Below, piece by piece: positions 1 to 18,194 of a stretch of DNA of 18,661 nt (within the stretch, counting starts at the first letter, position 1; every line of letters starts with the position of its first letter). The stretch comes from Planctomycetes bacterium UBA2386. Lineage in GTDB: Bacteria > Planctomycetota > UBA1135 > UBA2386. Position numbers and translations under genes: made by a program. Under the pieces are notes generated by a model that worked only from the letters and a program-made list of their open reading frames with translations, did no database searches and had not been told where the DNA came from. Location of the stretch: positions 1 to 18,661 of the forward strand of contig DDSQ01000100.1 in the NCBI GenBank assembly GCA_002343845.1, given 5' to 3'.

Positions 1-583
1 CAGCCGCCGCTCCGTCGCCGAACAGACCCATGCTGATCAGGTTCGCGATCGAACGATCCTGCGGCTGCAGCGTCAGTGAGCACTGTTCGACCGTCAGCAC
101 CAAGGCCACGCCACCGGGGTGCCCGCGCACGTAGTCGGTGGCGCGCGAAACCGCCGCGGCGCCGGCAACGCAACCCAGCCCGAACATCGGCACGCGCTTG
201 ACGTCGGGACGCAGCCCGAGCCGCGTGACGAGGTGGGCATCGATCGACGGGCTGGCGAGGCCGGTCACCGTCGAGAAGAAGATCGCGTCGACCTCGGCGG
301 GCGCGACCTTCGCCGCGGCCAGGGATCGCGTGCACGCGGCCTCGCCGAGTTCGATCGCACCGCCCAGCCACGCCGCGTTCGCCGCGGTGAAGTCGCCGAG
401 CCGTGCGTAACGTTCGAGCGGCAACGTCAGGTAGCGCCCCTCGATCCCCGAGTTCGCATGCAACGAGCGGATGCGGGCGGCCAGCCTGTCGTCGGCGCCG
501 ACGATCCGCACGATCTCCTCGGTCAGCACAGACTGCGGATACCAGTGCGCAGGGAATGCAGTACGCACGGCAGCGATCTTCAT
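1..583 (-). CDS. Type III polyketide synthase (chalcone/stilbene synthase family), 5' part
   Basis: The protein would condense a CoA- or ACP-bound starter, in bacteria often a long fatty acyl chain, with malonyl-CoA units to give an alkylresorcinol or alkylpyrone in the cytoplasm. About 194 residues lie in the window, the N-terminal half of a family usually 350-400 long; the catalytic His and Asn are beyond the left edge. The nucleophile is visible as Cys138 in FGLGCVAGAA, followed by EQCSLTLQPQD and the family signature GLFGDGAAA near the window edge. The ATG at 583-581 overlaps the TGA of the upstream methyltransferase gene (ATGA at 580-583), so it is probably the last or a late gene of the leftward operon and translationally coupled. 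Membership of the family is seen directly. Starter choice and product are inferred from the neighbouring O-methyltransferase, ICMT-like methyltransferase and flavoprotein. No frameshift is visible. Confidence 0.95.
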   Translation of the reverse strand, partial: MKIAAVRTAFPAHWYPQSVLTEEIVRIVGADDRLAARIRSLHANSGIEGRYLTLPLERYARLGDFTAANAAWLGGAIELGEAACTRSLAAAKVAPAEVDAIFFSTVTGLASPSIDAHLVTRLGLRPDVKRVPMFGLGCVAGAAAVSRATDYVRGHPGGVALVLTVEQCSLTLQPQDRSIANLISMGLFGDGAAA

Positions 584-1314
584 GGCCAGAGCCTGGGCAG
601 CAGATACGGAACGGTCGCTTTGTAGGCCGCGAACTTCGAACCGTGGTGACGCAACCACCGCGCTTCCTTGTGCAGCGGACCCAAGACGCAGTACAGCAGC
701 CACCCCCCGGCCAACAGCAGCCAGTCGAGCGACCAGGTCGGTGCCGTCAGCAGCACCAGGCCGAAACCCAGGTAGATCGGCTGCCGGCAGGCGCGGAACA
801 GGCCGTCGGTCGGCATGCCGCCGTAGTCGACCGGGTGCCTGCGCCACAGCGCCAGCCAGCCGGCGGCGCCGGTCTGCAGGCCGAGGCCAGCGTCATGCAT
901 CGCCTTGCCGAGGAACGCCCAGGCCAACACGAAGGCGATCCACTGCGCGGCGCCGAGCCACCCCGTTGGCGTGTGCCACACGATGCCCGAGGGCGTCCAC
1001 AGGCCGAACACCAGCAGCAACTGCAGCGACGTGATCAACGCGTACGTCGACGAGGCCAACGTCCGGCCGTGGCCGAACGGCGACAACCGCGCGACGACGT
1101 GCCGGCCGCGCGCACCCAGCAGCCAGCTGTGCAACAAGGGGAACTGCGCGACGAGCAGCAGATTCGCGACGATTGCCAGCCCGCCGTCCACGCTGCCGAG
1201 CCCCACCTGCAGACCGGTCGCGAGGGACACCGCCATCGCGGCGACGGCACCGCCGAACGCGGCCAAGCTGGTGACCGCCATCGCTGCCGCTGCAACTCGT
1301 GGGGCGAGTGTCAC
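580..1314 (-). CDS. Integral-membrane methyltransferase, isoprenylcysteine carboxyl methyltransferase (ICMT)/BpsB-like
   Basis: A polytopic membrane protein of 244 residues with five or six hydrophobic segments, ending in the ICMT/PEMT-type region: GLFRACRQPIYLG (Arg177, Pro179, Tyr181), two hydrophobic spans, then KEARWL and a C-terminal Tyr-rich VPYLLPRLWP tail. In this family the R-x-P-x-Y region and the acidic stretch near the C-terminus bind S-adenosylmethionine. In Bacillus, BpsB of this family O-methylates the alkylpyrone made by the adjacent type III synthase BpsA, and the next gene here is a type III synthase. I therefore infer methylation of a lipophilic polyketide at the inner membrane. 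The start chosen is GTG at 1314, whose GTGA overlaps the upstream stop; an ATG 11 codons downstream is the alternative. The stop overlaps the synthase start. The second residue of the usual Glu-Glu pair is replaced (KEA), so activity is likely but not certain. Confidence 0.85.
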   Translation of the reverse strand: MTLAPRVAAAAMAVTSLAAFGGAVAAMAVSLATGLQVGLGSVDGGLAIVANLLLVAQFPLLHSWLLGARGRHVVARLSPFGHGRTLASSTYALITSLQLLLVFGLWTPSGIVWHTPTGWLGAAQWIAFVLAWAFLGKAMHDAGLGLQTGAAGWLALWRRHPVDYGGMPTDGLFRACRQPIYLGFGLVLLTAPTWSLDWLLLAGGWLLYCVLGPLHKEARWLRHHGSKFAAYKATVPYLLPRLWP

Positions 1315-2018
1315 GCTGCACTCCGCCGGTAGAGGGCCGCATAGCCGACGCGCAAGTCCTCGCTGCGCTCGAGTTGGATGACCCCGTGGCGCAGGGAGCG
1401 GAGCAGGCGCGGGCGTTCCCCGCAGCGTTGGACCCGCACGAGTCCCGCACGAGTCGCGTGGGTTTCGAGTTCGTCGGGAGCGACGAAGTGGTCGTAGCGG
1501 TGCGTGCCTCGCGGCACGAAACCGAGCCCCTCGGCGAGCCAGATCGCGAGCCAGCGGGCACGCTGCGTTCGCGCAATGGTGTTGACGAACAGGTGCCCGC
1601 CGACAGCAAGCACCCGGGCCGCCTCGGCGAGGGTGGGCGCGATCCGGCTCGGCGCCACGTGTTCGAGGACATCCGCCAGCAGTACCAAGTCGGCGCAGCC
1701 GTCCGCCACGGGCGCCTCGTCGATGGCCCCCCGCACCGGCGCCACCCCAGGCTGCTGCCGGGCCTGCAGTTCGCGGAGTGCTTTCCCGGCGATGTCGACC
1801 GCCACGACCCGGGCGCCGTCCTGTGCCAGCGGCACCGCCAGCAGACCGCCGCCACAACCAAGATCGACGACCAGTCTCCGCTGCGCCGCCGGCAGCCAGT
1901 CCCGGAGCAGGCCGAGCCGGAACGTGGTGACCGCGCGCAACGACGCGAAGGCACGGCAACCAGGGTCCCACCAGCCCCCGCGATCGAAGTGCGCGTCCAC
2001 CGCAGGAAGGTCCTTCAC
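1311..2018 (-). CDS. UbiG-like class I SAM-dependent O-methyltransferase
   Basis: A soluble 235-residue methyltransferase. The N-terminus has HFDRGGWWDPGC, which resembles the FD...WWD opening of UbiG. Motif I is VVDLGCGGGLL (residues 50-60), the acidic ribose-binding residue follows in VVAVDIAG (Asp75), and LLADVLEHV is the post-motif-II signature. The C-terminus (DLRVGYAALYRR) also resembles UbiG. UbiG O-methylates catechol hydroxyls during ubiquinone synthesis; beside a type III synthase and a flavoprotein hydroxylase, an O-methylation of a hydroxylated alkylresorcinol is the likeliest step. The gene starts with GTG at 2018 and shares GTGA with the stop of the lipoprotein gene; its own stop shares GTGA with the ICMT-like gene. 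A true ubiquinone-pathway UbiG is possible but less likely, because no other ubi gene is present. Confidence 0.88.
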   Translation of the reverse strand: MKDLPAVDAHFDRGGWWDPGCRAFASLRAVTTFRLGLLRDWLPAAQRRLVVDLGCGGGLLAVPLAQDGARVVAVDIAGKALRELQARQQPGVAPVRGAIDEAPVADGCADLVLLADVLEHVAPSRIAPTLAEAARVLAVGGHLFVNTIARTQRARWLAIWLAEGLGFVPRGTHRYDHFVAPDELETHATRAGLVRVQRCGERPRLLRSLRHGVIQLERSEDLRVGYAALYRRSAA

Positions 2019-2431
2019 TGCAGCGCCTCGTGCCGCAGGACCACGCGACCCGCCCCCGACGTCAACCGTACGAACTCGCCGACGACCTCGACCGCCACCG
2101 GCGGCCCGTCATCGAGGTGCAGTTGGCCGCCCGCATGGCGCCAGGTTCCGTCGCGCGTCTGGAACGCGACGACGTCGGTCTCGATCAGCGCCGCTGCGGT
2201 GTAGGTTCCGTCGGCCCGGAACCAGTACCAGATGCGACGCAGGGACGCTGCCGCTTCACCTTGGACTTCGACCGACATGTAGAGCCCCGCCCACGCGAAC
2301 TCCGGCGCCGGCACGAACGCCAACGACTCGGTGCCGGTGGCGACGAGCCGCAGGCCGGGGTCGACGACGTTCGAGGCGATGCAACCCGACAGCACCATCG
2401 TCGCGAGCACGACGCACTTGGAGGCGTTCAC
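2015..2431 (-). CDS. Small predicted lipoprotein of unknown function
   Basis: I do not recognise a named family. The 138-residue product begins with a short positive N-terminus and a hydrophobic stretch ending in the lipobox LSGC (mature Cys17), so it should be a lipoprotein anchored to a periplasm-facing membrane. The rest is rich in predicted beta strands: a W-rich patch (RRIWYWFRADGTYTAA), then GTWRHAGGQLHLDDG, loosely like lipocalin-type small barrels, but I cannot assign it. The start chosen is GTG at 2431 because it gives a clean signal peptide and overlaps the YceI stop by GTGA; a longer open frame reaches 2485 but adds only an arginine-rich stretch that would spoil the signal. Its place between a YceI gene and two methyltransferase genes suggests a role in handling the cluster's lipid product. 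That role is inference only. Confidence 0.8.
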   Translation of the reverse strand: MNASKCVVLATMVLSGCIASNVVDPGLRLVATGTESLAFVPAPEFAWAGLYMSVEVQGEAAASLRRIWYWFRADGTYTAAALIETDVVAFQTRDGTWRHAGGQLHLDDGPPVAVEVVGEFVRLTSGAGRVVLRHEALQ

Positions 2432-3540
2432 TTGGCGGCTCCAGCGACGGCGCCGGCGCGGGCGCGCGCCCTGAGGGCGATCCACACCTTCACTTCGTCC
2501 TGCATGTTGACCAGCCCGAGTTGGCTCGGCACCGGCACGCCGTAGTCACTGAGCAGCAATGGCACCTGACCGGTGACCACCACGCGCTGCTGGGGGTCCA
2601 CCTCGATCCGGATCGGCATCTCCACTTCGCGACTCACGCCGCGGATCGTCATGCGCCCGTGCACCGTGCCACGCGACGTCCGGCCGGCGATGTCGACGCC
2701 ATCGGCTGCGGCGACGAAGCGGGCCACGGCGAACGAGATCGTGGGGTGCGCCGTCACCTCCAGGTGTTCCCGCATGTTCGTGTCGCGGCCGTCGACCCCG
2801 GTGCCGAGGGTTGCCGCCTGCACCTCGATGCCACCGCTCCAGGCTCCATCCTTGCCCGCCAGGTCGGCCCGGAACGAACCTCGCAACTGCGACGTGACAC
2901 CGCTGAAGTCGTGCAACGTGCTCTTCGCGTCGAAGCCGACACGCGACAGTTCTGGCACGACATCGAAGTCGTGGACGACGTCGAAGGCGAACACGGCCTT
3001 CGGCACGGTGAAGGACAGGAACGTCGTCGTAGGCGCAGGAGCAACCGGTTCGATCGCCGGAGGCGGAGCCGGCGAGACATCGGGAGCGTTCGCCGTCGCC
3101 GCACCGCCCTTCGACGATTCCGGCGATGCAACCACGGGGCCGGGGGGCGCCACCGGCACGGTGCCGCCGCCTGCCAGCGCGGGCGCGTTGGCGGCAAGGC
3201 GGTCTTCGAGCCGCGACAGCCGCGTCGTCAGTTCGGAGTTCGCCGCCCCCAGCGCCACCAGCCGCTGGCGGAGTTCGTCGGTACGCTGCGCTGCGCCGGC
3301 TTCGAGGCCACGACCGAGCTTCCCGAAGTTGTCGGCGATCGCCTGCTGCAACTCGCTCACGGTGCGACCCAAGCCAGCGACGTCGTCGCGCAGCAGGGCC
3401 ACGGGATCGACGGCTTCACGTGCCGCATCCTCGCTGATCACGACGTTCACGCGATCGCGCAGCACGACGAAGCCCGCCGTGGCCCCACCAACCAGCGACA
3501 ACACGAACAGGACGCCCAACCACTGCAGCAGCCTCGCCAT
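2428..3540 (-). CDS. Membrane-anchored coiled-coil protein with C-terminal YceI domain
   Basis: A 370-residue protein in four parts: one N-terminal membrane helix (about residues 5-27), a heptad-rich helix likely to form a coiled coil (about 45-118), a Pro/Ala linker (about 126-172), and a YceI-like beta-barrel domain (about 196-357). The barrel carries the expected TLHDFSG (208-214) and GRDTNMREHLEV (251-262) signatures. YceI proteins form a lipocalin-like tunnel that binds polyprenyl or quinone lipids; most are about 190 residues with a cleaved signal peptide, so this one is nearly twice the usual size and tethered. It is the first gene of the leftward operon. The ATG at 3540 lies directly before the membrane helix; there is no good ribosome binding site. 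An in-frame extension to 3657 exists but adds only low-complexity residues. Inferred role: periplasmic reception or transfer of the polyketide lipid. Confidence 0.9.
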   Translation of the reverse strand: MARLLQWLGVLFVLSLVGGATAGFVVLRDRVNVVISEDAAREAVDPVALLRDDVAGLGRTVSELQQAIADNFGKLGRGLEAGAAQRTDELRQRLVALGAANSELTTRLSRLEDRLAANAPALAGGGTVPVAPPGPVVASPESSKGGAATANAPDVSPAPPPAIEPVAPAPTTTFLSFTVPKAVFAFDVVHDFDVVPELSRVGFDAKSTLHDFSGVTSQLRGSFRADLAGKDGAWSGGIEVQAATLGTGVDGRDTNMREHLEVTAHPTISFAVARFVAAADGVDIAGRTSRGTVHGRMTIRGVSREVEMPIRIEVDPQQRVVVTGQVPLLLSDYGVPVPSQLGLVNMQDEVKVWIALRARARAGAVAGAAK

Positions 3541-3698
3541 GCCGGACGCGAGGCAAGGCCCGTACCCACGGCACGCACCCACGGTCGCACGGCGCGCTGC
3601 TCGGTGCATGGGGTGCGGACCGTGCATTCCTTGCGCACTGGCGTGTAGGACCTGCATGGTCCTTCGACCCGCCCCCCTCGGCATGGTGGCGGCACGGC
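3541..3698. promoter_or_regulatory. Divergent control region between the two polyketide-cluster operons
   Basis: This 158-base gap separates the leftward YceI-first operon from the rightward MMPL-first operon and must hold both promoters. It contains a perfect 6-bp dyad AGGACC-TGCAT-GGTCCT (3647-3663), a GTGC...GCAC dyad (3622-3638), and a direct repeat ACCCACGG at 3564-3571 and 3577-3584 (13-base period). The motif GTGCAT also recurs at 3604 and 3622. I see no convincing sigma-70 -35/-10 pair on either strand. The dyads are candidate operators for a shared regulator; no DNA-binding regulator gene is in the window. Confidence 0.45.
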
Positions 3699-5687
3699 GT
3701 GTGCCATGCGGCTGCCACCTGCGTGGCGAACGACGTGACGAGATCCTGGCCCCGCCACCTCCCATGGCTCTCGTTCGTGCTGCTGCTCGGCGTCGCGACC
3801 GTGGGCATGCTCCGACAACGGGTCGACCCGACGAACCACGCGCTCAAGGACCCGACCAGCCGCGATGCCGACGCGCTGCGTGAGCTGCACGAAGTCGTCG
3901 GCGACGACCCGATCCTGCTGCTCGGATTCACGACGCGGGGCGGTCTGCCGATGGCCGACGCCGACCGCGGTCACCTCGAACGGCTGCGAGTGCAGCTCGC
4001 CACGCAGCCCGACGTGCGGGCAGCAACCGCGATCCCGCTGGCGGACGAAGGCCTGGCCGTCTTCTCGCTCGAACTCACCGGCGACGAGGCGCACGCCGCC
4101 GGGGAACGGGCCATCGCCACCGCCGACGCCGAGAAACCGCCGACTGTCGACGTACACGCCGCCGGCTTGTCGCACCTGGAAGGGACCATCGCTGCGCGAA
4201 TCGCCGCCGAGCGGGCGCGCGTGGTGCCGATCGTCATCGCGGTGCTGGCGCTCGCGCTCGCTTGCATCTACCGCCACGCCACGCTCGTGGTCGCCGCCCT
4301 GCTGCCCGCGATCGCCGCGATCGTGACGCTCGAAGGCGCCCTCGGCTGGCTCGGACATCCGCTCGACCCGATCGCGTCGATGCTCGATCCGGTGCTGCTC
4401 ACGATCGGCGTCGGCGGTTCCGCGCACTTCATCCAGTCGTTCCGCCTGGGGCAGGCGGCAGGGCTCACCAACGCCGCCGCCGCGGCGAGCGCCGCCCGCG
4501 ACGTTCTGCACCCCGCATTGCTCGCGACCGCCACCACGATGATCGGTCTGTGGTCCGTCGGTATCAGCAGCATCCCGGCCGTGGTCGACTTCGGCATGCG
4601 CGGCGCGCTGGGTGTCGCCCTCACCAACGCCTTCGCGTTCTGGCTGCTGCCGGGCGTTCTCGGGTCGTTCGCGCCGCCTGCGGTCGCTGGCAGCACGTCC
4701 GCAAGGCAACGCAGCGCGAACGTGCGCCGATGGCGGGTGCCGATCCTGGTCGGCACGACGGCGGCCACGGCATGGCTGCTCGCCGGCGTCTTCGCGTTGC
4801 GCGGCGACAACGACCCGCTGCGCGTGTTGCCGGCCGGCGAACGTGCACAGCGGGACCACGAAGCACTCGCCACGCGCCTCGGCGGCATCGAGGTCTGCCA
4901 CTTGCTGGTGCCCGAGCGCAGCCGCGCTGCCGAGCCGTCGCGCCTGCTGCCGTTCGTTGCGGCAGTACGAGCCGAGCCCGGCATCGCCGGCCTGGCCGGG
5001 GAAATGGTGCGCAGCCCGAGCGGTGCGCTGGCAATCCCCCTGCTGCTGGCACCGGGCGGCAGCGCCCAGCGCACGGCGCTGTTCGACGACATCGACCGCA
5101 CGGCGCGTGCACTCGGCCTCGAGAACGTCCGCGTCGCCGGAGCGGCCGTGCAGATCGCCCGGGACTCCGACCGCTTGCTCCAGACGTTGGGCACGAGCGT
5201 GTTCCTCACCATTCCGAGTCTGTGGCTCGCGATGGCATTTGCACTGCGTTCCTGGCGCCTGGCGATACTGGCGTTGCTGCCCAACCTGCTGCCGGCGATC
5301 TGGTTGTACGGCGGCATGGGTTGGATCGGACGACCGGTGTCGGTCGCGACCGCCATGATCGGCAGCACCCTGCTCGGGATCATCGTCGACAACACGATCC
5401 ACCTGCTGCACGCCATCCTGCCGTCGCGTGGCGCCGCCAGGCATCCACATGGCGTCGCCGAAGCGCTCGCCCGCCGAGGACCGGCGATCCACACCAGCAG
5501 CCTGGTGCTGATGCTCGGGTTCCTGGCAACCACGATCAGCGGCCTCGGGACGACCGTCGAGTTCGCCGTGCTCGCCGCGGCGACGATCGGCATCGCCTGG
5601 TTCGCAACGGCGATCGTGCTGCCGCTGCTGCTGAGCGACGAGGACGACAGGGGTGCGATGCGCGATGCGGTCGGAGCCCCGGCATGA
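3699..5687 (+). CDS. MMPL/RND-superfamily lipid exporter, 12 membrane helices
   Basis: A transporter of 662 residues with the RND layout: helix 1 (about 20-37), a large extracytoplasmic loop, helices 2-6, helix 7 (about 347-368), a second large loop, then helices 8-12. The repeat motifs lie in helix 4 (GVGGSAHF, 238-244) and helix 10 (GIIVDNTIHLL). The proton-relay Asp is present in helix 10 (Asp564) but Gly240 occupies the matching place in helix 4. MMPL proteins use the proton gradient to move lipids such as hopanoids or mycolyl glycolipids outward; here a phenolic or quinone lipid is inferred. It leads the rightward operon and its stop overlaps the flavoprotein ATG (ATGA). The start is uncertain: GTG at 3699, 3723 or 3735 are all in frame and none has a Shine-Dalgarno sequence; 3735 would place the start closest to helix 1. 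Confidence 0.9.
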   Translation: MCHAAATCVANDVTRSWPRHLPWLSFVLLLGVATVGMLRQRVDPTNHALKDPTSRDADALRELHEVVGDDPILLLGFTTRGGLPMADADRGHLERLRVQLATQPDVRAATAIPLADEGLAVFSLELTGDEAHAAGERAIATADAEKPPTVDVHAAGLSHLEGTIAARIAAERARVVPIVIAVLALALACIYRHATLVVAALLPAIAAIVTLEGALGWLGHPLDPIASMLDPVLLTIGVGGSAHFIQSFRLGQAAGLTNAAAAASAARDVLHPALLATATTMIGLWSVGISSIPAVVDFGMRGALGVALTNAFAFWLLPGVLGSFAPPAVAGSTSARQRSANVRRWRVPILVGTTAATAWLLAGVFALRGDNDPLRVLPAGERAQRDHEALATRLGGIEVCHLLVPERSRAAEPSRLLPFVAAVRAEPGIAGLAGEMVRSPSGALAIPLLLAPGGSAQRTALFDDIDRTARALGLENVRVAGAAVQIARDSDRLLQTLGTSVFLTIPSLWLAMAFALRSWRLAILALLPNLLPAIWLYGGMGWIGRPVSVATAMIGSTLLGIIVDNTIHLLHAILPSRGAARHPHGVAEALARRGPAIHTSSLVLMLGFLATTISGLGTTVEFAVLAAATIGIAWFATAIVLPLLLSDEDDRGAMRDAVGAPA

Positions 5688-6898
5688 GCGACGATGTCCT
5701 GATCCTCGGTGCCGGGCCGGCCGGATCGACCCTCGCATGGCGCCTCGCCCGTGCCGGGCTGCGCGTGCGCATCGCCGACCGCGCCGACTTCCCGCGGTCG
5801 AAGCCGTGTGGCGAATTCCTGAGCCCGGCATGTGCCGGGCATCTGCGCGAACTCGGCTTCGACGACCCCTGCGCACAACTCGGTGCGACGCCGGTGCGCA
5901 GCATGTGCCTCGGCGGCTTCGGGGTCACTGCGACCGGCCGATTCCGGCACCTGCCAGGGCGCCCCGACGCGTCGGCACCCGGCTTCGGAATCCGCCGGTC
6001 CGTACTCGACGAGCGCCTGCTGCGCGCCGCCGAAGCCGCCGGCGCTCGCTTCACGCCACGAACGGAGTTCCTCGCACTCCTGCGGGACGGCAACGGACGC
6101 GTCGCGGGGGCTGCGGTGCAGAACGGCGCGACCACGACCCGCCTCCCTGCCCGATTCGTCGTCGGCGCGGACGGACTGCACTCGCGCGTCGCGCGGTCCA
6201 TGGGTGTGCACCGTCGCGTCGCGTGGCTCGACCAATTCGCGCTCACCACGCACTACGCGACCGCCGAGCCACACGACGACGCGGACGTGCACCTGCTGCC
6301 GAGCGGGTTCGCCGCCACCACCGGCGTCGGCGAGGGCATCTTCAGCTTCAACCTGGTGTTGCCGCGTACACGATTCCGCGGCCGGACGACCGGGGACTGG
6401 GATGCCTTCGTGCAGGCACACGTAGCCGGCTCCGAACGGATCGCGGCGCGGCTGGCGGCGGCGCGACGCTGCGGACCGTGGCGAGGTTGCGGCCCGTTCG
6501 GTCATCGCACGACGACGGTGTGGCAACCCGGCGTGGCGTTGGTCGGAGATGCGGCGGGCTACGTCGATCCGATGACCGGGGAAGGCATCTACTACGCGCT
6601 GTTCGGCGCGAGGGCGCTGGCGGGTGCCGTGATCGCGGCACTCGCGGATCCTGACGCCGAAGCCGACGCGCTCGCCGGCTACGCGGCGGCCCGACGCCGT
6701 GAACTCGGACCGCGTATGCGCGCCGCCAGCCTGCTGCAACGCGCCTTGCGCCATCCGTTCGTCGTACGCAGCGGCCTGCGCGCGCTCGAGCGCTGGCCGG
6801 CGCTCTGCGACCTGGTCGTGACGCTGACGGGGGACACCATCCACCCGCGCGAACTCTGGCGGCCTTCGTTCTGGCGCGACTTCCGGAGGGCTCTGTGA
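5684..6898 (+). CDS. FAD-dependent oxidoreductase, geranylgeranyl reductase/aromatic hydroxylase type
   Basis: A 404-residue flavoprotein with an N-terminal Rossmann motif (LGAGPAG, residues 8-14), the RADFPRSKPCGEFLSP segment typical of the geranylgeranyl-reductase branch of p-hydroxybenzoate-hydroxylase-fold enzymes, a VVGADGLHSRV motif, and the second FAD motif GDAAGYVDPMTGEG beginning at Gly288. Related flavoproteins beside type III synthases, such as SrsC of the Streptomyces srs operon, hydroxylate alkylresorcinols on the way to quinones; others reduce isoprenoid double bonds. Hydroxylation is the better fit given the O-methyltransferase genes across the divergent promoter. The ATG at 5684 overlaps the MMPL stop and the TGA at 6896 overlaps the next GTG, so it is coupled on both sides. 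The halogenase Trp motif is absent. Substrate is inferred. Confidence 0.88.
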   Translation: MSDDVLILGAGPAGSTLAWRLARAGLRVRIADRADFPRSKPCGEFLSPACAGHLRELGFDDPCAQLGATPVRSMCLGGFGVTATGRFRHLPGRPDASAPGFGIRRSVLDERLLRAAEAAGARFTPRTEFLALLRDGNGRVAGAAVQNGATTTRLPARFVVGADGLHSRVARSMGVHRRVAWLDQFALTTHYATAEPHDDADVHLLPSGFAATTGVGEGIFSFNLVLPRTRFRGRTTGDWDAFVQAHVAGSERIAARLAAARRCGPWRGCGPFGHRTTTVWQPGVALVGDAAGYVDPMTGEGIYYALFGARALAGAVIAALADPDAEADALAGYAAARRRELGPRMRAASLLQRALRHPFVVRSGLRALERWPALCDLVVTLTGDTIHPRELWRPSFWRDFRRAL

Positions 6899-7563
6899 AC
6901 ATCGCCCTCCACGGCAAGGTGCTTGGGCCGCTCGCGATCGCAGTGCTGGCCTGCCTGCCGCACGCCCTGCCCGCACCGAGGCCACCGGCGATCGGAGCAG
7001 CCTCGCCAGTCGCGATGCCGCGCCTGCACGGACTGCCCGACCCGAAACGTCCCAGTTCCTTCGAACTCGACGCTGAAGCGTCCTCGGTGGGCATCCTCGT
7101 GCACGACGGCGATGGTGATCGCCGACTGCGCTGCGAGGGCGTGCTCGGCACGCTGCACTTCGATGCCGATGGCACGGCGCGACTGGAACTTCACATCCCT
7201 CTGACGGCGCTGCATACCGACGACGATGGCCCACCCATCGACCTGCCGCGGTTGCTCGGCGTACATCGCGGGGACGAGATCGCGTTGCGCGCCAACCTGG
7301 CCGCCACGACCACGAGCGACTTGCCCGGCGTCACAGCCCGCACCTGGGTCGGCACGTTGACCTTCGGCTCGCAGGTGCGTCGGCAGCTGCTCGAGACCTG
7401 GACGTGTTTCCTGCCGGGGCGCCCGTTCCGACTGCAAGGGCACGGCACCGTGCCGGCCAGCGACTATGGCCTGCCGCGCCGTGGCCTGTTCTCCTTCCTC
7501 GATGCACCCGCCCACTTCACCCTCGGCCTCGACCTCGCCTTCCGGCGACCACGTCAGGACTGA
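6895..7563 (+). CDS. Secreted YceI-like protein, divergent
   Basis: A 222-residue protein with an N-terminal signal-like hydrophobic segment (about 8-26) followed by a beta-rich domain (about 53-217). The pattern of a starting strand SSFELDAEASSVGILV, a middle LHIPLTALHTDD and the closing DYGLPRRGLFSFLD strands resembles YceI, but the usual DMREHL signature is replaced by IDLPRLLGVHRGD, so the lipid-binding loop differs. It is the second YceI-type gene in this divergent cluster and sits directly downstream of the flavoprotein, sharing GTGA at 6895-6898. Its 3' end overlaps the probable start of the kinase gene. Inferred role: periplasmic binding of a product or intermediate. Family assignment is moderately sure; an unrelated beta-barrel protein is the main alternative. 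Confidence 0.7.
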   Translation: MNIALHGKVLGPLAIAVLACLPHALPAPRPPAIGAASPVAMPRLHGLPDPKRPSSFELDAEASSVGILVHDGDGDRRLRCEGVLGTLHFDADGTARLELHIPLTALHTDDDGPPIDLPRLLGVHRGDEIALRANLAATTTSDLPGVTARTWVGTLTFGSQVRRQLLETWTCFLPGRPFRLQGHGTVPASDYGLPRRGLFSFLDAPAHFTLGLDLAFRRPRQD

Positions 7564-9058
7564 CGGGAACGGCTCGCCGCGGCGGTCGCTGGCCCGCGCG
7601 TTGTTCCTGGTCTTCGCGCCGCTGTGCACCGTCTTGGCCGCGGCGGCGGCCCTTCAGTTCTTCCTGGCGCGCACCATGCACCACGACGTGCGCAGGCTGT
7701 TCGAAGAGCTTCGCGAGGTGGCGAACGCCCGGACGCTCGTCGACGAGTTGCGCGGCGTAGCCACCTGGGTGCAGGCGGCACCGCTCGCGACCGCGGACAC
7801 GCAGCCACTCGTCATCGCCGACGTACGCCAGCATCACGACGCCGCGCGCACGACGCTGACGCGGTTCTCGACCCCCGACGATCCATCGCGACCGCTTCAC
7901 GACTCCGCCGAGCGGGGCATCACTGCACGCCTCGAAACCACGCTGCAGGCGATCGACGCCCGGCTGGGCAAGGCTCCGCTGCGCGAACTGCGCGATCAAG
8001 CGACAGCTGCGCGGCAGGACGCCATCGCCTTGACGGCCCTCGTCGACAACGAGATCCGCGAGATCGGCGGCCACCTCGACCAGCGCAGTGGCGACATGGC
8101 GCAGTTCCTGCTCCTGTGCGGGCTCGCGACGCTGCTGACGGTCGGAGGACTCGGCCTGTGGCTGCTCCGCCGCGTTCTGCGTCCCGTTCGCGCGCTGCGC
8201 CACGCCGCAGTGCGGTTCGGCGCCGGCGAGTGGGAAGCGCCGACGGCGGTGATGCACGACGATGAACTCGGGGATCTGGCGGTCACCTTCCACTCGATGG
8301 CCGAACGGCTGCGGCGCAATCAGAAGGACCTCGAGCAGCGCGTCGAGGAGCGGTCGAAGGAAGTCCTGCGCAGCGCCAAGCTCGCGCAGCTCGGCACGCT
8401 CGCCGCAGGGGTGGCCCACGAGATCAACAACCCGCTGGCCAGCATCGTCGCCGGCACCGATGGCATGCTCCGCGGCCTGGCGACGGGCACCGCAGCCGAC
8501 CCGGTCGAACTTCGCGAGTACCTGCAGTTGCTGCGCAAGGAGGCGATGCGCGCCCGCGACATCACGGCCCGCCTGCTGCGCTTCGCGCGCCAGGACCGGG
8601 GACAACGCGTGCCAGTGGACCTGACTGCCGAGGCACGCGAGGTCGCTGCGATGTTCCAGCATCAACTGCAGGACGCCGCCGTGGAACTGCGGTGGCGCGG
8701 CGACGGCGCGATGGCGACCACGGTTCTCGGCGATGCGTCGGAACTGCGCCAGGTGCTGTTCAACCTGCTGCGCAACGCACTGGATGTCAGTCCACGCGGC
8801 GGGGCGATCACGATCGAGTTGGCGCGCCGCGACGGCATGGTCGATCTGATCGTGAGCGACGAAGGCCCAGGCATCGCCGCCGGGGACTTCGAACGCATCT
8901 TCGAACCCTTCTTCACGACCAAGGAACCCGGCAAGGGCACCGGCCTCGGGCTCGCGATCGTGCATCGCATCGTGACCGGCCACGGCGGCGAAGTCCGCGC
9001 CGCCAACACCGGGCGAGGCGCCGCGTTCACCGTGCGGCTGCCAGCCGACGGCCGCTGA
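7502..9058 (+). CDS. Sensor histidine kinase, NtrB/ZraS-like, orphan
   Basis: With an ATG start at 7502 the product has 518 residues: membrane helix 1 (about 33-56), an extracytoplasmic helical domain of about 140 residues, membrane helix 2 (about 199-222), a HAMP segment, a short coiled coil, then a HisKA domain with AAGVAHEINNPLASI (phospho-acceptor His306) and a HATPase domain with the N box NLLRNALD (Asn425), G1 box DEGPGI (Asp453), F box FEPFFTTK and G2 box GTGLGL (479-484). All catalytic residues are intact. The start is uncertain: ATG at 7466 or 7502 overlaps the YceI gene by 62-98 bases, and a TTG at 7601 would avoid overlap but lies inside helix 1. No response regulator is encoded in the window. 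Its place in the operon suggests that it senses envelope or lipid state; that is inference. Confidence 0.92.
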   Translation: MHPPTSPSASTSPSGDHVRTDGNGSPRRSLARALFLVFAPLCTVLAAAAALQFFLARTMHHDVRRLFEELREVANARTLVDELRGVATWVQAAPLATADTQPLVIADVRQHHDAARTTLTRFSTPDDPSRPLHDSAERGITARLETTLQAIDARLGKAPLRELRDQATAARQDAIALTALVDNEIREIGGHLDQRSGDMAQFLLLCGLATLLTVGGLGLWLLRRVLRPVRALRHAAVRFGAGEWEAPTAVMHDDELGDLAVTFHSMAERLRRNQKDLEQRVEERSKEVLRSAKLAQLGTLAAGVAHEINNPLASIVAGTDGMLRGLATGTAADPVELREYLQLLRKEAMRARDITARLLRFARQDRGQRVPVDLTAEAREVAAMFQHQLQDAAVELRWRGDGAMATTVLGDASELRQVLFNLLRNALDVSPRGGAITIELARRDGMVDLIVSDEGPGIAAGDFERIFEPFFTTKEPGKGTGLGLAIVHRIVTGHGGEVRAANTGRGAAFTVRLPADGR

Positions 9059-10318
9059 TCATGGCCCGACGATCGCGGAGACCCGGTTGCTGATCGTCGC
9101 GCCGAGCGCGTTCGACTGGTCGTAGACCGCGATCTGGCTCTCGATGGTCGCGCCCGCGAGCGACAACGTCTCGGGGATCGGCAGCACGAACGTCGTGTTG
9201 CCCGCGCCGTCGGCGATCTGCACCGGCGTGTCGACGAACACGACTTCGAGCACGCAGCCTGGGGCTCCGTTCGACGTGAGGTCGAGGAACGTCGCCGCGA
9301 AGCCGATCACGTGCAGGGCGATGCCGCCGGCGTCGAGGTTGCTGCCGCGCACGGCGTAGGTGGTGCCGATCGCCGGCCGTTCGACGCGCAGCGGCGCGCC
9401 CGGGCCGACCAGCGTCGTCGCCACCGAGGCGACGCGACCGCCGCACCCGCCGGCATGCACGGTGACGCCGGCGGCCGGCCCGGCGTGGAGATCCAGGTAG
9501 TAGCGACCCCCGACGCTGCCAGCCCACCCGCGGATCGCGACCTGGTAGGTGCCCGCCGGCAGGCGCACGTCGAGCGGCGTGTCCCAGACGCCGTAGTCCC
9601 GCGCATGGAACGGGCCGGCCAGCAGGTTCGGCGGCGTGCTGCCGTCGAACAGGTAGAGCACCGGGTCGTCGGCGCGCGGCGTCAACGGATGCGTCGCCGT
9701 CGCCGCGAGGTTGGCGCGCACGAAGGTCTCGTTCGCGAGTTGGAACCGCCAGAAGTCCCAGTCCCCCGCCGCCCCGACGCTGGCCAGCACGCCGTTGCCG
9801 CGCACCGGCAGCGTCACGAACGTGGCGGTGCCGCCGCTGCGCGGGTCGTTGTTCTCCGGACCTTCGGCGACGATCGGCGGCACGGCGAAGGTCGTCGGCA
9901 CACTGGCCCGCACGTCGAGCACGTAGCTGCCGGAAGTCGCGGCGAACGCCCCGGCCTCGACGGCGACGTGGTAGGTGCCGGCCGGCAACGCACGGACGTG
10001 CAGCCGCGAGTAGCGCCCGCAGCCGACGCCGTCGTCGTTCGCAGCGAGCGGCGAACCCGAGCCATCGAGCAGCACGAGTCGCGTGTCGCCGATCTCGGTG
10101 GTCACGCCCGGGCCGGTCTCGAGCCGCAGATCGCGGGTGGCGACCAGCACCACGCGCCACCAGTCGCTGTCGGCGGCGTTCGCGAGCCCGCCGAGCGCTT
10201 CGCGGCCGATCGGCAGCACGGTCGCGGTCGCGACCGATGCGTTCGGCTCGGCACCCTCGGGCACCTGCTGCGCCGACGTGGCGCCGAGCAGCAGCAATGC
10301 AGCGAACCGGGGGACCAT
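9059..10318 (-). CDS. Secreted protein with two PPC-like beta domains, function unknown
   Basis: The 419-residue product has a signal peptide (about 1-17, ending TSAQQ) and no catalytic domain that I can recognise. Two pre-peptidase C-terminal (PPC)-like beta-sandwich repeats follow, about 23-138 and 150-282; each shows the D-x-D/W-F/W-R core (DSDWWRV, GDWDFWRF) and a LPAGTYxV strand near its end. A C-terminal module of about 130 residues ends in ALGATISNRVSAIVGP, a type of tail I associate with secreted planctomycete proteins. PPC domains are usually attached to secreted peptidases or surface proteins; here they stand alone, so adhesion or a structural role is possible. Its stop codon abuts the kinase stop with no gap. 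A -10-like TATCCT lies 10 bases before the ATG. Confidence 0.85.
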   Translation of the reverse strand: MVPRFAALLLLGATSAQQVPEGAEPNASVATATVLPIGREALGGLANAADSDWWRVVLVATRDLRLETGPGVTTEIGDTRLVLLDGSGSPLAANDDGVGCGRYSRLHVRALPAGTYHVAVEAGAFAATSGSYVLDVRASVPTTFAVPPIVAEGPENNDPRSGGTATFVTLPVRGNGVLASVGAAGDWDFWRFQLANETFVRANLAATATHPLTPRADDPVLYLFDGSTPPNLLAGPFHARDYGVWDTPLDVRLPAGTYQVAIRGWAGSVGGRYYLDLHAGPAAGVTVHAGGCGGRVASVATTLVGPGAPLRVERPAIGTTYAVRGSNLDAGGIALHVIGFAATFLDLTSNGAPGCVLEVVFVDTPVQIADGAGNTTFVLPIPETLSLAGATIESQIAVYDQSNALGATISNRVSAIVGP

Positions 10319-10355: not shown

Positions 10356-11984
10356 TCAGCGCCGTGGCCGCAACATCAGGATGCGCTGGTCCGGATCGAC
10401 GAACCACTCGTGGTCGCCGACGCGCAGCCGGCCGGTGCCGCCGGTCATCTCGACGCGCACCTCCTCACCGCGCAGACGCACCGGCACCGGCAGCGAGAAC
10501 GGCCGATCCCCGGGCACCTGCCAGCGCAGCACCAGATCCCCGGCGACCACCTCCCTGGCCAGCGTCGGCAGACCGGCGGACCGCACGTAGACCTCGAAGA
10601 ACCAGCCCAGGTCCTCACCCGCCAGTTCGCTGCACAGCCGCACGAAGTCGTCGGTGTCGGCGAAGCGCACCTGCGAGCCGTCGGTCGCCTTCGCCGCCGC
10701 CTCGGTCGGGTAGCAGAACTGCCGCAGCGCCGTGAAGAACCGCTGGTCGCCGAGCAGCCAGCGCAGCGTGTGCAGCACGTGGCTGCCCTTGTAGTAGAGG
10801 TCGTTGCTGCCGCCGGCGAAGTAGATCTGCGCGCTGGTCTTGCTCTCGCGCGGCGCGATCGGCGAACGGTTGCCGTGCCGGTACTTGCCGATCTCGTCGG
10901 CATAGGCCTGCTTGCCGAACCGCCGCTCGCGGTAGAGCGGCTGCATGTAGGTGCCAAAACCCTCGTGCAGCCACATGTCCTTCCAGTCGCTGCAGGTGAC
11001 CAGGTTGCCCCACCACTCGTGCGCGAGTTCGTGGTTGTGCAGCCAGTCGTACTGCTCGTCCCGGAAGCCGTTGCCGTAGGCGATGATCGTCTGGTGCTCC
11101 ATGCCGAGGTGCGGGGTCTCGGCGATCCCGTACTTCTCGGCGCGGAACGGGTACGGCCCGAGCAGTTCCTCGAACACGCGCAGGTGGTCCCGGAACTGCG
11201 GGGCGCAGCGTTTCGCGCGCTCGACGCTCTCCGGCAGCACCCACAGCACGAACGGCATCACGGTGCCGTCGATGCAGGTGTAGGAGTCCGCGATCTCGAC
11301 GTACGGCGCGATGTTGAGGGCGATGTTGTAGTTGGCGATCGGCTGCTGCGTTCGCCAGTGGAACGTCGTGCGTTCGCCGCTCGTCGCTGGTTCGCCGACG
11401 AGCACGCCGTTGCTCGCGAGCACGAGCCCCTTCGGGATCGTGCAGACGAGGTCGAAGCCGTCGGGCTTGTCGGACGGGTGGTCCTTGCACGGCCACCACA
11501 GGTCGGCCCCCTCGCCCTGGCAGCTCGTCGCGATCCACGGCGCGCCGTCCTTGGTGGTCTTCCAGGTGAAGCCGCCGTCCCAGGGTGGGTTCTTGGCGAC
11601 GCGCGGCGCGCCGCCGTAGCGCACCGCGACCTCGAACAGAGCGCCAGCGGCGATGGCGGGCTCGGGAGTGACGAGGATGCGGCCGGGCACCCGCTCGAAC
11701 TTCGCCGGCTTGCCGTCGACGGTCACGTCGTGCACCGACAACGCCGCATCGAGGTCGAGCCCCAGCGTCGCCGCCGGCGCCAGCAGCGAGGCGCGCATCG
11801 TCAGGGTGCCGGCGATCGACTTGGCGGCGACGTCGACGTCCAGTTCGAGGCGGTAGTGCCGCACGTCGTAGCACGCCTGGTCCGCGCGCAAGGGGCCGCC
11901 CGAGACGTTGCGTGGCTCCTGGGCCACCACCTCGGCCAGGAGCAGCGCGACCAGGAACACGGGACGGCGCCACGAGTCGTTCAT
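10356..11984 (-). CDS. Secreted M1-family zinc aminopeptidase
   Basis: A 542-residue metallopeptidase with an N-terminal signal peptide (MNDSWRRPVFLVALLLAEVVAQ). An N-terminal beta domain is followed by the catalytic domain: the substrate-anchoring loop GMEHQ (294-298, the local version of GAMEN), the zinc site HELAH (His318, Glu319, His322) and the third ligand Glu341 in WLHEGF, spaced exactly HExxH-x18-E. A later YYKG probably supplies the transition-state Tyr. It should remove N-terminal residues from peptides outside the cytoplasm. The chain stops soon after the catalytic domain with only a small beta domain and lacks the large helical C-terminal domain of PepN. The ATG at 11984 is preferred over an upstream in-frame ATG at 12008 because it begins at the signal peptide. 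TAGAGT lies 8 bases upstream. Confidence 0.95.
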   Translation of the reverse strand: MNDSWRRPVFLVALLLAEVVAQEPRNVSGGPLRADQACYDVRHYRLELDVDVAAKSIAGTLTMRASLLAPAATLGLDLDAALSVHDVTVDGKPAKFERVPGRILVTPEPAIAAGALFEVAVRYGGAPRVAKNPPWDGGFTWKTTKDGAPWIATSCQGEGADLWWPCKDHPSDKPDGFDLVCTIPKGLVLASNGVLVGEPATSGERTTFHWRTQQPIANYNIALNIAPYVEIADSYTCIDGTVMPFVLWVLPESVERAKRCAPQFRDHLRVFEELLGPYPFRAEKYGIAETPHLGMEHQTIIAYGNGFRDEQYDWLHNHELAHEWWGNLVTCSDWKDMWLHEGFGTYMQPLYRERRFGKQAYADEIGKYRHGNRSPIAPRESKTSAQIYFAGGSNDLYYKGSHVLHTLRWLLGDQRFFTALRQFCYPTEAAAKATDGSQVRFADTDDFVRLCSELAGEDLGWFFEVYVRSAGLPTLAREVVAGDLVLRWQVPGDRPFSLPVPVRLRGEEVRVEMTGGTGRLRVGDHEWFVDPDQRILMLRPRR

Positions 11985-11992
11985 GCGGCGGC

Positions 11993-11998
11993 ACTCTA
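11993..11998 (-). promoter_or_regulatory. Possible -10 element for the M1 aminopeptidase gene
   Basis: TAGAGT on the minus strand (4 of 6 matches to TATAAT) ends 8 bases before the ATG at 11984. There is no good -35 match and no Shine-Dalgarno sequence. If real, it implies an almost leaderless transcript and a transcription start separate from the epimerase gene upstream. Confidence 0.25.
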
Positions 11999-12030
11999 CG
12001 CACGACACCGCCGCCGTGCAGGCGCGGCGA

Positions 12031-12999
12031 TCAACGCTGCGTTCGCCAACGCTGCACCAGGTCCTTCGCGGCGCCCGCCCACTCGGGCCACGCGAAGCGG
12101 AACCCGTGCGCGAGCAGGCGCCCGGGCACGACGCGGCGGCTCTTCAGCACGAGCTCCGTCTCGGTGCGCAGCAAGAACGCGCCGACTTCGAGCATCCAAC
12201 GTGTCGCCGGCAGACCCAGGCGCGTCCCCCATGCGCTGCGCAACGCCCGCAGGAAGTCGGCGAACGGCAGCGGTGCGGGCGCTGCGATGTTGACCGGTCC
12301 GGCGATCTCGTGGGCGATCAACCAGCGCACCGCGCTCACGAAGTCGTCGCCGTGGATCCACGACACGAACTGCCGCCCGTCGCCGGGGGTGCCACCGAGG
12401 CCGAACCGCACGAGCCGCAAGAGCACGTCGAAGATGCCGCCGCGATCGGGCGTCATCGTCATCGCCGAACGCAGCAGCACGAGCCGCGTACGCGGCAGCG
12501 GACGTTCCTGCGCTGCCGCCTCCCAGGCCTTGGCGACGTCGATCGAGAACCGCCAGGTCGCGGGCACCGACGGCTCGTCGCCGCCGAGCACGCCGGTCGC
12601 TTCGTCGTTCGCCGCATCGTGGCGGTGCGCGTAGATCGTCGCCGTGCTCGCCTGCAGCCAGACGCGCGGCGGTCGCCGCGCCGCCGCGATCGCCGCCCCG
12701 AGAGCGCGCGTGCTGTCGACGCGCGACCGCAGGATCGCCGCGCGGTTGCTCGCCGTGTAGCGACAGTCGACGGAACGCCCGGCGAGGCCGATCACGACGT
12801 CGGCGCCTTCGAGTTCGTGGGCCCAGGCCCCGAGGTCCCCGCCCGCGACGAACGCAGCACCGGCGTCCCAGGTCGCGGTGCGCCACGGCACGCTGCGCGG
12901 CGTGCGCCCGAGTTCGACGACTTCGTCGCCGGTGGCAAGGAACGCACGCGCCAGCAGCGTGCCGACCTGGCCGGAGCCGCCTGGAATCACGACCTTCAT
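12031..12999 (-). CDS. TIGR01777-family NAD(P)-dependent epimerase (YfcH/SDR39U1-like)
   Basis: A 322-residue extended short-chain dehydrogenase. The dinucleotide-binding motif is IPGGSGQVG at the N-terminus (Gly7, Gly10, Gly13). Other hallmarks of the TIGR01777 group are GLAGRSVDCRYTASNRAAI, the RSRVDSTRAL segment, QASTATIYAHRHD, and SWIHGDDFVSAVRWLI, with a C-terminal DUF1731-like tail (LPATRWMLEVGAFLLRTETE). The group is named after sugar epimerases but its natural substrate is mostly unknown; some members accompany cell-division or tetrapyrrole genes. The ATG at 12999 gives the expected N-terminus; an open frame reaches 13140 but would run through the divergent promoter region. It is divergent from the aminotransferase gene and upstream of the M1 peptidase gene on the same strand with a 46-base gap. 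Confidence 0.9.
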   Translation of the reverse strand: MKVVIPGGSGQVGTLLARAFLATGDEVVELGRTPRSVPWRTATWDAGAAFVAGGDLGAWAHELEGADVVIGLAGRSVDCRYTASNRAAILRSRVDSTRALGAAIAAARRPPRVWLQASTATIYAHRHDAANDEATGVLGGDEPSVPATWRFSIDVAKAWEAAAQERPLPRTRLVLLRSAMTMTPDRGGIFDVLLRLVRFGLGGTPGDGRQFVSWIHGDDFVSAVRWLIAHEIAGPVNIAAPAPLPFADFLRALRSAWGTRLGLPATRWMLEVGAFLLRTETELVLKSRRVVPGRLLAHGFRFAWPEWAGAAKDLVQRWRTQR

Positions 13000-13102
13000 C
13001 CGCTCAGGAACGGCCCCCCGCCCCCGCGAATTGCTCGCCCGTCGGGTTCGCTCGCCGTCGGCCCCGCCCGCTCGCGGCGATGGAACGCACAGGGTGCCGC
13101 CG

Positions 13103-13108
13103 TATGGT
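13103..13108 (+). promoter_or_regulatory. Possible -10 element placing transcription start at the aminotransferase GTG
   Basis: TATGGT (4 of 6 matches to TATAAT) lies 6 bases before the GTG at 13115; TGGAAC sits 16 bases upstream as a poor -35. The spacing would put the transcription start at or next to the start codon, which fits a leaderless message and supports the GTG at 13115 over the ATG at 13139. It is inference from one short motif. Confidence 0.3.
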
Positions 13109-13114
13109 GCGCGC

Positions 13115-14281
13115 GTGGTCCTGCGCCAGTTCCCACCCATGGGGGTCTACGAGACCCTGTTCCGCTTCGCCGAGGTCAGCCACAAGTACATGGGCGATCC
13201 CGGCACCCATCCGTGGGCGCAGGGCTTCCCGCTGACGACGCAACTGCCCGGCGGCCCGAGCCTGCCCGACTCGATCGCGATCACCGCGACCGATCGCATG
13301 TACCCGAAGGCCGACGGCCAGCCGCCGCTGCGCGAAGCGATCGCCGCGTACTACCGTCGCTTCCACGGCGCGAAGATCACCGCCGACCACGTCGCCGTGT
13401 TCGCCGGCGGGCGGCCGGGGATCTGGGCGATCCTCGCGTTCCTGCTCGAGGACTGGCAGTGCACGATCGAGGAGACCGAGTACACGCCGTACTGGGACGC
13501 GTTGAAGCTGCTGCGCCGCCCCACCGTGCTGATCCCGAGCAACCCGGGCAACAACTTCCGGCCGACCCTCGCCGACCACCCGACCGCCGACCACACGCTG
13601 CTGATCAAGAGCAACCCGTGCAACCCGACCGGGGTGACGTGGAGCGGCAAGGAGCTGCAGCAGCTCGTTCGGCACTACAGCGATCCGCGCCGCGCGGCAT
13701 TGGTCGACGAGGCCTACGAGTTCTTCCACGCCAGCGACAGCGTCAGTGCGCTGCGGTACGTCGACGACATCGACGCCACCAACCTGTTCCTCAGCGGTGC
13801 CGCGACCAAGGGCCTGCAGGTGCCCGGCATGCGCATCGGCTGGATCGTCGCGGCGAAGAAGCACATCGAGATCTTCCGCAACTTCAGTTCGATCGCGATG
13901 GGCGGCGTGTCGCGCGCCTCGCAGCTCTACGTCACGCAGCTGCTGCAGCCCGAACGGGTCGCCCAGGCGCGCCAGGCGGTCGCGACGTTCTACGGCAGCC
14001 AACGCAAGCGCTATGGCGAGGGGCTGCGCAACCTCGGCTTCGAGCTGTTCACCGGCGACGGCGGCTTCTACCACTGGGGACGGCTGCCGAAGGGACTCAC
14101 CGGCGATGCGTTCAACGAACGGCTGATGAAGCACGACGCCGCGATCCTGCCCGGCCGGCTCTGCGACATGGCGCGCCGCGGCGACCACGGCCCGCTCGGG
14201 AGCTTGGTGCGCTTCTCGTTCGGGCCGTTGACCGCGGACTCGTACGAGAACGACCTCGCGATCATGGCCCGCTGCTTGTGA
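13115..14281 (+). CDS. PLP-dependent class I/II aminotransferase
   Basis: A 388-residue fold-type I aminotransferase. Visible landmarks are NPCNPTG (167-173), the pyridine-nitrogen Asp198 and Tyr201 in DEAYEFF, the Schiff-base lysine Lys232 in SGAATKGLQVPG, and a phosphate/carboxylate-binding Arg in the C-terminal VRFSFGPL. It should transfer an amino group between an amino acid and a 2-oxo acid; the substrate cannot be read from the sequence. GTG at 13115 is chosen because the extra residues (VVLRQFPP) run smoothly into the conserved-looking GVYETLFRFAEV; the alternative is ATG at 13139, eight codons later. It is a single-gene unit, divergent from the epimerase and convergent with the dehydratase, and its stop codon forms part of a perfect hairpin. 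Confidence 0.92.
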   Translation: MVLRQFPPMGVYETLFRFAEVSHKYMGDPGTHPWAQGFPLTTQLPGGPSLPDSIAITATDRMYPKADGQPPLREAIAAYYRRFHGAKITADHVAVFAGGRPGIWAILAFLLEDWQCTIEETEYTPYWDALKLLRRPTVLIPSNPGNNFRPTLADHPTADHTLLIKSNPCNPTGVTWSGKELQQLVRHYSDPRRAALVDEAYEFFHASDSVSALRYVDDIDATNLFLSGAATKGLQVPGMRIGWIVAAKKHIEIFRNFSSIAMGGVSRASQLYVTQLLQPERVAQARQAVATFYGSQRKRYGEGLRNLGFELFTGDGGFYHWGRLPKGLTGDAFNERLMKHDAAILPGRLCDMARRGDHGPLGSLVRFSFGPLTADSYENDLAIMARCL

Positions 14282-14302
14282 CGGCGCGCGTCGGCGCCGT
14301 CA
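14279..14302. terminator. Perfect 9-bp hairpin between convergent genes, probable bidirectional terminator
   Basis: TGACGGCGC (14279-14287), loop GCGTCG, and GCGCCGTCA (14294-14302) are perfectly complementary. The outermost three base pairs are the TGA stop codon of the aminotransferase gene and the TGA of the dehydratase gene on the other strand. The arms are very GC-rich but no T-run follows on either side, so it is either a non-canonical intrinsic terminator or a 3'-end stabiliser. Confidence 0.6.
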
Positions 14303-18190: not shown

Positions 18191-18194
18191 CGCC

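Follow-up and report, generated by a model that had tools for sequence, protein, structure and literature searches.

A divergent planctomycetal locus for a probable phenolic lipid, with putative carriers and predicted sigma-54 control

The question raised by positions 1 to 9,058 of contig DDSQ01000100.1 from Planctomycetes bacterium UBA2386 (GenBank assembly GCA_002343845.1) is why genes for a type III polyketide synthase (PKS) and its tailoring enzymes should lie back to back with genes for a transporter and a sensor kinase. The whole stretch analyzed, hereafter the window, comprises 18,661 nucleotides. An earlier note, made from the sequence alone, had read these genes as a complete system to make, export, carry and sense a phenolic or quinone lipid of the envelope, a reading that as a whole is partly supported by the comparisons described here. 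We lean towards a dedicated phenolic-lipid locus in which making, exporting, carrying and sensing are placed under one sigma-54 switch; the locus probably makes an oily phenol or quinone and carries this product outward through the envelope.

Gene calls together with Pfam and NCBIfam scans placed nine genes in two divergent operons. The five genes of the minus strand follow the order YceI1, lipoprotein, UbiG-like methyltransferase, ICMT-like methyltransferase and type III PKS, and the four of the plus strand the order MMPL transporter, flavin adenine dinucleotide (FAD) enzyme, YceI2 and histidine kinase. The layout proposed earlier is thus confirmed, with all nine genes present in the window, except that the PKS is incomplete and runs past the window edge. 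Six of the seven gene junctions are 4-nucleotide start/stop overlaps, suggesting coupled translation, and the seventh (YceI2/kinase) overlaps too if the kinase, whose start is uncertain, begins at the ATG at 7502. The features of the locus are:

1..583, minus strand: type III PKS, N-terminal 194 residues, cut by the window edge (PF00195, E 5.8e-22)
580..1314, minus strand: ICMT-like membrane methyltransferase (PF06966, DUF1295, E 2.3e-6)
1311..2018, minus strand: UbiG-like methyltransferase (PF08241, E 4e-18; TIGR01983, 96 bits, cut-off 102.95)
2015..2431, minus strand: lipoprotein with LSGC at the N-terminus, lipocalin-like by prediction
2428..3540, minus strand: YceI1, with an N-terminal membrane helix (hydropathy, 8-26), a linker and a C-terminal YceI domain (PF04264, E 3.5e-18, residues 193-357)
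3552..3567, minus strand: predicted sigma-54 -24/-12 site GGGTACGGGCCTTGCC before YceI1 (score 12.0 of 14.5; position conserved)
3647..3663, between the two promoter sites: inverted repeat AGGACCTGCATGGTCCT, candidate activator site (half-site pattern in 9/9 close loci)
3690..3705, plus strand: predicted sigma-54 -24/-12 site CGGCACGGCGTGTGCC before MMPL (score 12.0 of 14.5; position conserved)
3735..5687 (start 3723 or 3735), plus strand: MMPL/HAE3-type transporter (PF03176, 35 bits, cut-off 20.5)
5684..6898, plus strand: FAD-dependent oxidoreductase, hydroxylase or reductase (PF01494, E 4.2e-24; TIGR02032, 137.5 bits, cut-off 158.8)
6895..7563, plus strand: YceI2, with a membrane helix and a predicted YceI fold (structure model, mean predicted local distance difference test score, pLDDT, 80.4; Foldseek best E 3.8e-7)
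7502..9058 (start uncertain), plus strand: sensor histidine kinase with two membrane helices (hydropathy) and a HAMP-HisKA-HATPase arrangement (PF00672, PF00512 and PF02518, all above cut-off)

Conservation of this gene set was assessed at two levels. A profile of the ICMT-like protein recovered 198 relatives in genome_contigs, the best 80 of the 198 being kept as loci. Among the 27 fetched loci that bear YceI1, 19 hold the kinase, FAD enzyme, MMPL, YceI1, lipoprotein, UbiG-like, ICMT-like and PKS genes in the divergent order of the window, and this identical order argues that the set is kept together beyond chance. The other eight comprise L003, L010, L012 and L013, which are cut by contig ends, L020, L025 and L026, which are without one to three of the genes, and L018, where no MMPL gene is present in the 1.7 kb remaining before the contig end.

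The second level was a sample of 154 genomes from the planctomycete class of L007, including Planctomycetes bacterium Pla163 (L044, G002). PF00195 scored above cut-off in 74 of these genomes, at 79 places, after 12 places under cut-off had been dropped; YceI1 lies at most 10 kb from 43 of the 79, in 32 cases together with MMPL, and 36 have neither, so that type III PKSs at large are close to even for the presence of the YceI and MMPL genes. A different picture is obtained for orthologues of the window PKS. A search with this PKS set them clearly apart, the orthologues of 52 genomes scoring at least 166 bits and the other type III PKSs (19 places) at most 125 bits; YceI1, lipoprotein and MMPL all lie within 10 kb of 31 of the 52 orthologous synthases, and one or two of them near a further 8. 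Twelve of the 36 places with neither gene were fetched with their flanks, of which 3 are orthologous to the window PKS (283-315 bits, hidden Markov model score) and 9 are not (63-188 bits). The lipoprotein family occurs in 42 of the 52 genomes with an orthologous synthase and in 6 of the 102 without, counts that ignore genome kinship, and all 42 places with YceI1 and MMPL at most 3 kb apart have the two genes in divergent orientation. For these counts 12 YceI1 rows (further fragments of a gene already counted, or weak hits) were dropped, while 58 MMPL rows were used for divergence and the weakest 10 of the 58 were left out of co-occurrence. Homologues found mostly without the YceI and MMPL genes, which the earlier note had named as the outcome that would speak against it, were therefore not seen among orthologues; the whole set is kept in related genomes, and the claim that the genes act as one unit is supported. 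Of 392 genomes sampled across the phylum, 22 carry YceI1 at E ≤ 1e-20, and 10 of these do not belong to the 154. Variant arrangements in other planctomycete type III PKS clusters lend further support: L093, L094, L095 and L100 have a YceI gene beside a divergent type III PKS (165-225 bits) in another gene order, each with a FAD enzyme, and L094 and L100 with MMPL too, while L092 holds MMPL, PKS and FAD enzyme together without YceI.

The sensing half of the locus can be extended by a regulator that the earlier note had missed. In all 12 of the loci L001-L012 (L010 being cut by its contig end), the gene that follows the PKS and faces it encodes a response regulator similar to the one in L012, whose Response_reg, Sigma54_activat and HTH_8 domains are of NtrC type; the Pfam scan covered four regulators, and the remaining ones were assigned by similarity. 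Of 33 related loci, 28 carry a regulator that scores at least 390 bits; it comes mostly after the kinase in the more distant loci, and L013, L014, L015 and L017 carry weaker regulators 2-4 kb past the PKS. Because an NtrC-type regulator resides at the locus, sigma-54 promoters were predicted, and in the intergenic region between the divergent operons -24/-12 sites with a score of 12 or more (of 14.5) were found before YceI1 in 20 of 24 loci and before MMPL in 22 of 24, the window included. Dinucleotide shuffles gave means of 0.44 (YceI1 side) and 0.62 (MMPL side) with maxima of 3 and 4, and among the other gene starts at these loci such a site occurs in 1 of 145. The starts that fall below the score are YceI1 of L011, L016, L022 and L038 and MMPL of L026 and L027; in L011, L016, L022 and L027 sites scoring at least 13 occur elsewhere in the same region. 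The half-site pattern of the candidate activator site between the promoters was picked post hoc, after the sequences had been viewed. Taken across loci, these comparisons support a switch in which the kinase and the NtrC-type regulator would turn on both operons through sigma-54 promoters.

The chalcone/stilbene synthase N-terminal domain of the PKS matched PF00195 at 78.7 bits against a cut-off of 27, and its catalytic-type Cys, present in the window sequence, does not vary among the 39 aligned relatives; the His and Asn positions of the triad fall past the window edge, the His column being kept in 38 of the 39. The best solved relative is Mycobacterium Pks11 (E 2.1e-49). The methyltransferase earlier described as ICMT/BpsB-like matched DUF1295, and at E 0.01 it matched no Pfam ICMT family. 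Its score against the MddA model (61.5 bits) is far under the cut-off of 270, and 446 relatives were found at E ≤ 0.001, of which 120 were listed. When the UbiG-like protein was searched against viral_contigs, three stretches fitted a pattern and none was a relative. The nearest solved structures of the FAD enzyme are halogenases; on visual inspection of its motifs, a halogenase role seems unlikely. As a separate observation, alphaproteobacterial loci (L032, L033, L040, L041 and others) carry a UbiG-like gene after the ICMT-like gene with no PKS match, and in these loci, where the UbiG-like gene often accompanies the ICMT-like one, no YceI1 or MMPL match was obtained; the pair perhaps serves another pathway there.

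Three proteins are putative carriers, and their support is at the level of fold. YceI1 matched PF04264 at 66.8 bits (cut-off 23.7). For YceI2, neither PF04264 nor any other Pfam or NCBIfam model matched at E 0.01, and the second YceI-type protein of the earlier note is borne out, though missed by Pfam, by a predicted fold that matches solved YceI structures: rows 1-21 of the Foldseek search with the YceI2 model are all YceI-type, with template modelling scores (TM, query) of 0.42-0.56. The YceI2 profile took in YceI1 sequences, and its matches are counted only as 'YceI-like'; a sequence search of solved structures returned no relative for YceI1 or for the YceI2 profile. Together with the lipoprotein, predicted to be lipocalin-like, the modelled folds favour the carrying role that had been proposed. 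Export of the product by the MMPL protein is plausible. The protein scored 106.8 against TIGR00921, short of the cut-off of 351.9, and for its gene a start at 3723 or 3735 is likelier than one at 3699, since 3699 sits inside the conserved promoter site at 3690-3705.

While the gene set, the folds, the regulator and the promoter sites are supported by comparison, we infer the product, the direction of export and the signal. The synthase of 'Saltatorellus ferox' Poly30 yielded penta- and heptadecylresorcinols and methylated forms of these in C. glutamicum, the latter ascribed to methylmalonyl-CoA, and it groups with methylmalonyl-using synthases in the tree of that paper (Milke 2024, PMC10896814). 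By analogy with this homologue, the window synthase would condense a long-chain acyl-CoA with malonyl- or methylmalonyl-CoA to alkylresorcinols; as their families suggest, the ICMT-like and UbiG-like enzymes may then methylate the product and the FAD enzyme oxidize its ring, so that a hydroquinone or quinone lipid bearing methyl groups would result. The MMPL protein would extract this lipid from the inner membrane; from there the two anchored YceI proteins, together with the lipocalin-like lipoprotein, could ferry it through the periplasm in the direction of the outer membrane, with the kinase and NtrC-type regulator, as the comparison of loci supports, activating both divergent operons. The making role proposed earlier is in line with the alkylresorcinols of the related operon (PMC10896814). 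A bolder form, less likely than not, would make the locus a trafficking route complete in itself and gated by a sensor: a single sigma-54 two-component switch would start synthesis, an MMPL protein with a half-lost proton relay would extrude the product, and three lipocalin-type carriers in the periplasm would hand this phenolic or quinone lipid on to the outer membrane. If true, the route would be a counterpart of Lol or Lpt that serves a different lipid. The locus also hints at a lipid-transport route in planctomycetes, whose cell envelope is unusual, and it provides a switch, an export candidate and carriers through which the function of these lipids becomes testable.

Several observations weigh against a dedicated, sigma-54-controlled make-and-carry locus. 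Near 13 of the 52 orthologous synthases (up to 10 kb away) there is no gene for YceI1, the lipoprotein or MMPL; 4 of these genomes carry all three on other contigs and 2 carry MMPL on another contig, and 7 of the 13 are without all three altogether. The synthase is present without YceI1 in L084, L085 and L090, and in L099 the YceI1 and lipoprotein genes are followed by 3.7 kb in which neither a synthase nor a methyltransferase was found. YceI2 is not universal, as fewer than 140 nucleotides lie between the FAD and kinase genes in L019, L023, L024, L025, L039 and L044, and L096 (genome G076), at a guess 'S. ferox' itself, is an otherwise complete locus without MMPL. In MMPL transporters of the resistance-nodulation-division (RND) HAE3 type, an Asp is expected in both transmembrane helix 4 (TM4) and TM10; at this locus the family has the TM10 Asp in 23 of 23 members and the TM4 Asp in 0 of 23, a half-lost relay that may imply unusual coupling. 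The search stretches for the promoters were fixed after sites had been seen, which makes that test partly post hoc, and within the window by itself matches to the sigma-54 core with at most one mismatch numbered 18 against 15.4 expected, not above chance, with the loose GG-N10-TGC core at 72 against 76.5. The prediction of sigma-54 control therefore relies on the position of the sites across loci. The expected place of the regulator, moreover, is beyond nucleotide 1; since it adjoins the synthase in close relatives, the regulator of this strain probably lies just outside the window.

The same evidence bears on other ways of reading the locus. The product could be a redox-active alkylquinone retained by the cytoplasmic membrane, the fate suggested for the polyketide quinones of mycobacteria, with the YceI proteins acting at the membrane surface and the MMPL protein only flipping the product or serving another lipid. 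The UbiG-like and UbiH/geranylgeranyl-reductase-like enzymes do belong to quinone-type tailoring families, a polyisoprenoid-binding protein is found among YceI relatives, and L096 keeps the rest of the locus without MMPL; however, a lipocalin-like lipoprotein in the operon would be needless for a quinone that stays in the membrane, and the invariable divergence of MMPL from nearby YceI1 (42 of 42) also counts against it, which leaves this reading unlikely in our judgment. Fainter still is the case for alkylpyrones as the product, with pyrone methyl ethers formed by the methyltransferases and the rest of the locus working as in the phenolic-lipid reading: the nearest solved relative, Pks11, is an alpha-pyrone synthase, whereas the 'S. 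ferox' enzyme, related by operon description and not by sequence, gave alkylresorcinols (PMC10896814).

We find it very improbable that two separate functions merely share a promoter region, one a phenolic-lipid operon and the other an unrelated envelope transport and sensing operon. Among genomes without an orthologous synthase, 6 have a strong MMPL and 6 have the lipoprotein, and 10 of the 52 synthase genomes are without MMPL and 10 without the lipoprotein, which speaks for this reading; yet in 2 of the 6 genomes (G092, G145) the operon is truncated by the end of its contig, the FAD enzyme and YceI2 reside in the MMPL operon while YceI1 and the lipoprotein reside in that of the synthase, and sigma-54 sites precede both operons.

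Beyond the kinase, a PPC-domain protein (9059-10318) is encoded convergently with it, and a related gene occupies the same place in L002, L006, L007, L009 and L011. The remainder of the window (10356-18659) encodes, by Pfam, an M1 peptidase, a DUF1731 epimerase, an aminotransferase, a PALP-family enzyme, a phosphofructokinase and the C-terminal part of a biotin carboxylase, along with two proteins without a Pfam match (15259-16473 and 17519-18190).

Among known systems, srsABC of Streptomyces and bpsAB of Bacillus combine a type III PKS with a methyltransferase, and in srs also a flavin hydroxylase, to yield methylated phenolic or pyrone lipids; they are known to hold synthesis genes only, and are not known to include a carrier or a sigma-54 unit. 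In the mycobacterial loci L031, L034 and L055, as in the window, genes for an ICMT-like protein, MMPL, a type III PKS and a FAD enzyme are near one another, and MMPL sits between the ICMT-like gene and the PKS (Pfam E 2.3e-75 for the MMPL of L034), but these loci lie on a single strand in another order and gave no match for YceI1, lipoprotein or regulator. The YceI protein TT1927b (1wub) shares the fold of YceI2 and the sequence family of YceI1, whereas the YceI proteins of the window are membrane-anchored and tied to a phenolic-lipid locus. Searches, from which the subscription literature was mostly absent, found no publication on a divergent transport operon beside this PKS operon or on its sigma-54 control, and none pairing YceI with type III PKS, NtrC with type III PKS and resorcinol, or YceI with MMPL and polyketide. 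Among listed papers, a single one, on Mycobacterium avium paratuberculosis, joins MMPL with type III PKS and alkylresorcinol, and six, three of them on Azotobacter, join sigma-54 with alkylresorcinol.

The closest precedent is the five-gene operon of 'S. ferox', described as encoding a lipid/isoprenoid-binding protein, a lipoprotein, two methyltransferases and a type III PKS (Milke 2024, PMC10896814). The same paper states that neighbouring genes are kept only among close relatives of a strain, and it assigns no roles to the two methyltransferases. The gene order of the operon is that of the window's minus strand, a match by description and not by sequence, and in the portion of the text available neither a divergent MMPL/FAD/kinase operon nor sigma-54 control is mentioned (PMC10896814). 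The hidABC operon of Cyanobium and the planctomycetal three-gene operons described in that paper likewise join a methyltransferase, an oxidoreductase and a type III PKS for an alkylresorcinol-derived lipid, but are without YceI, lipoprotein and MMPL, and the 'S. ferox'-type PKS falls in another clade (PMC10896814). The comparison with known clusters drawn in the earlier note had missed that for 'S. ferox' the minus-strand half had been published before (PMC10896814). The kind of cluster and its minus-strand half are thus already known, and what is new is the transport half conserved beside it, together with the sigma-54 switch predicted for both halves.

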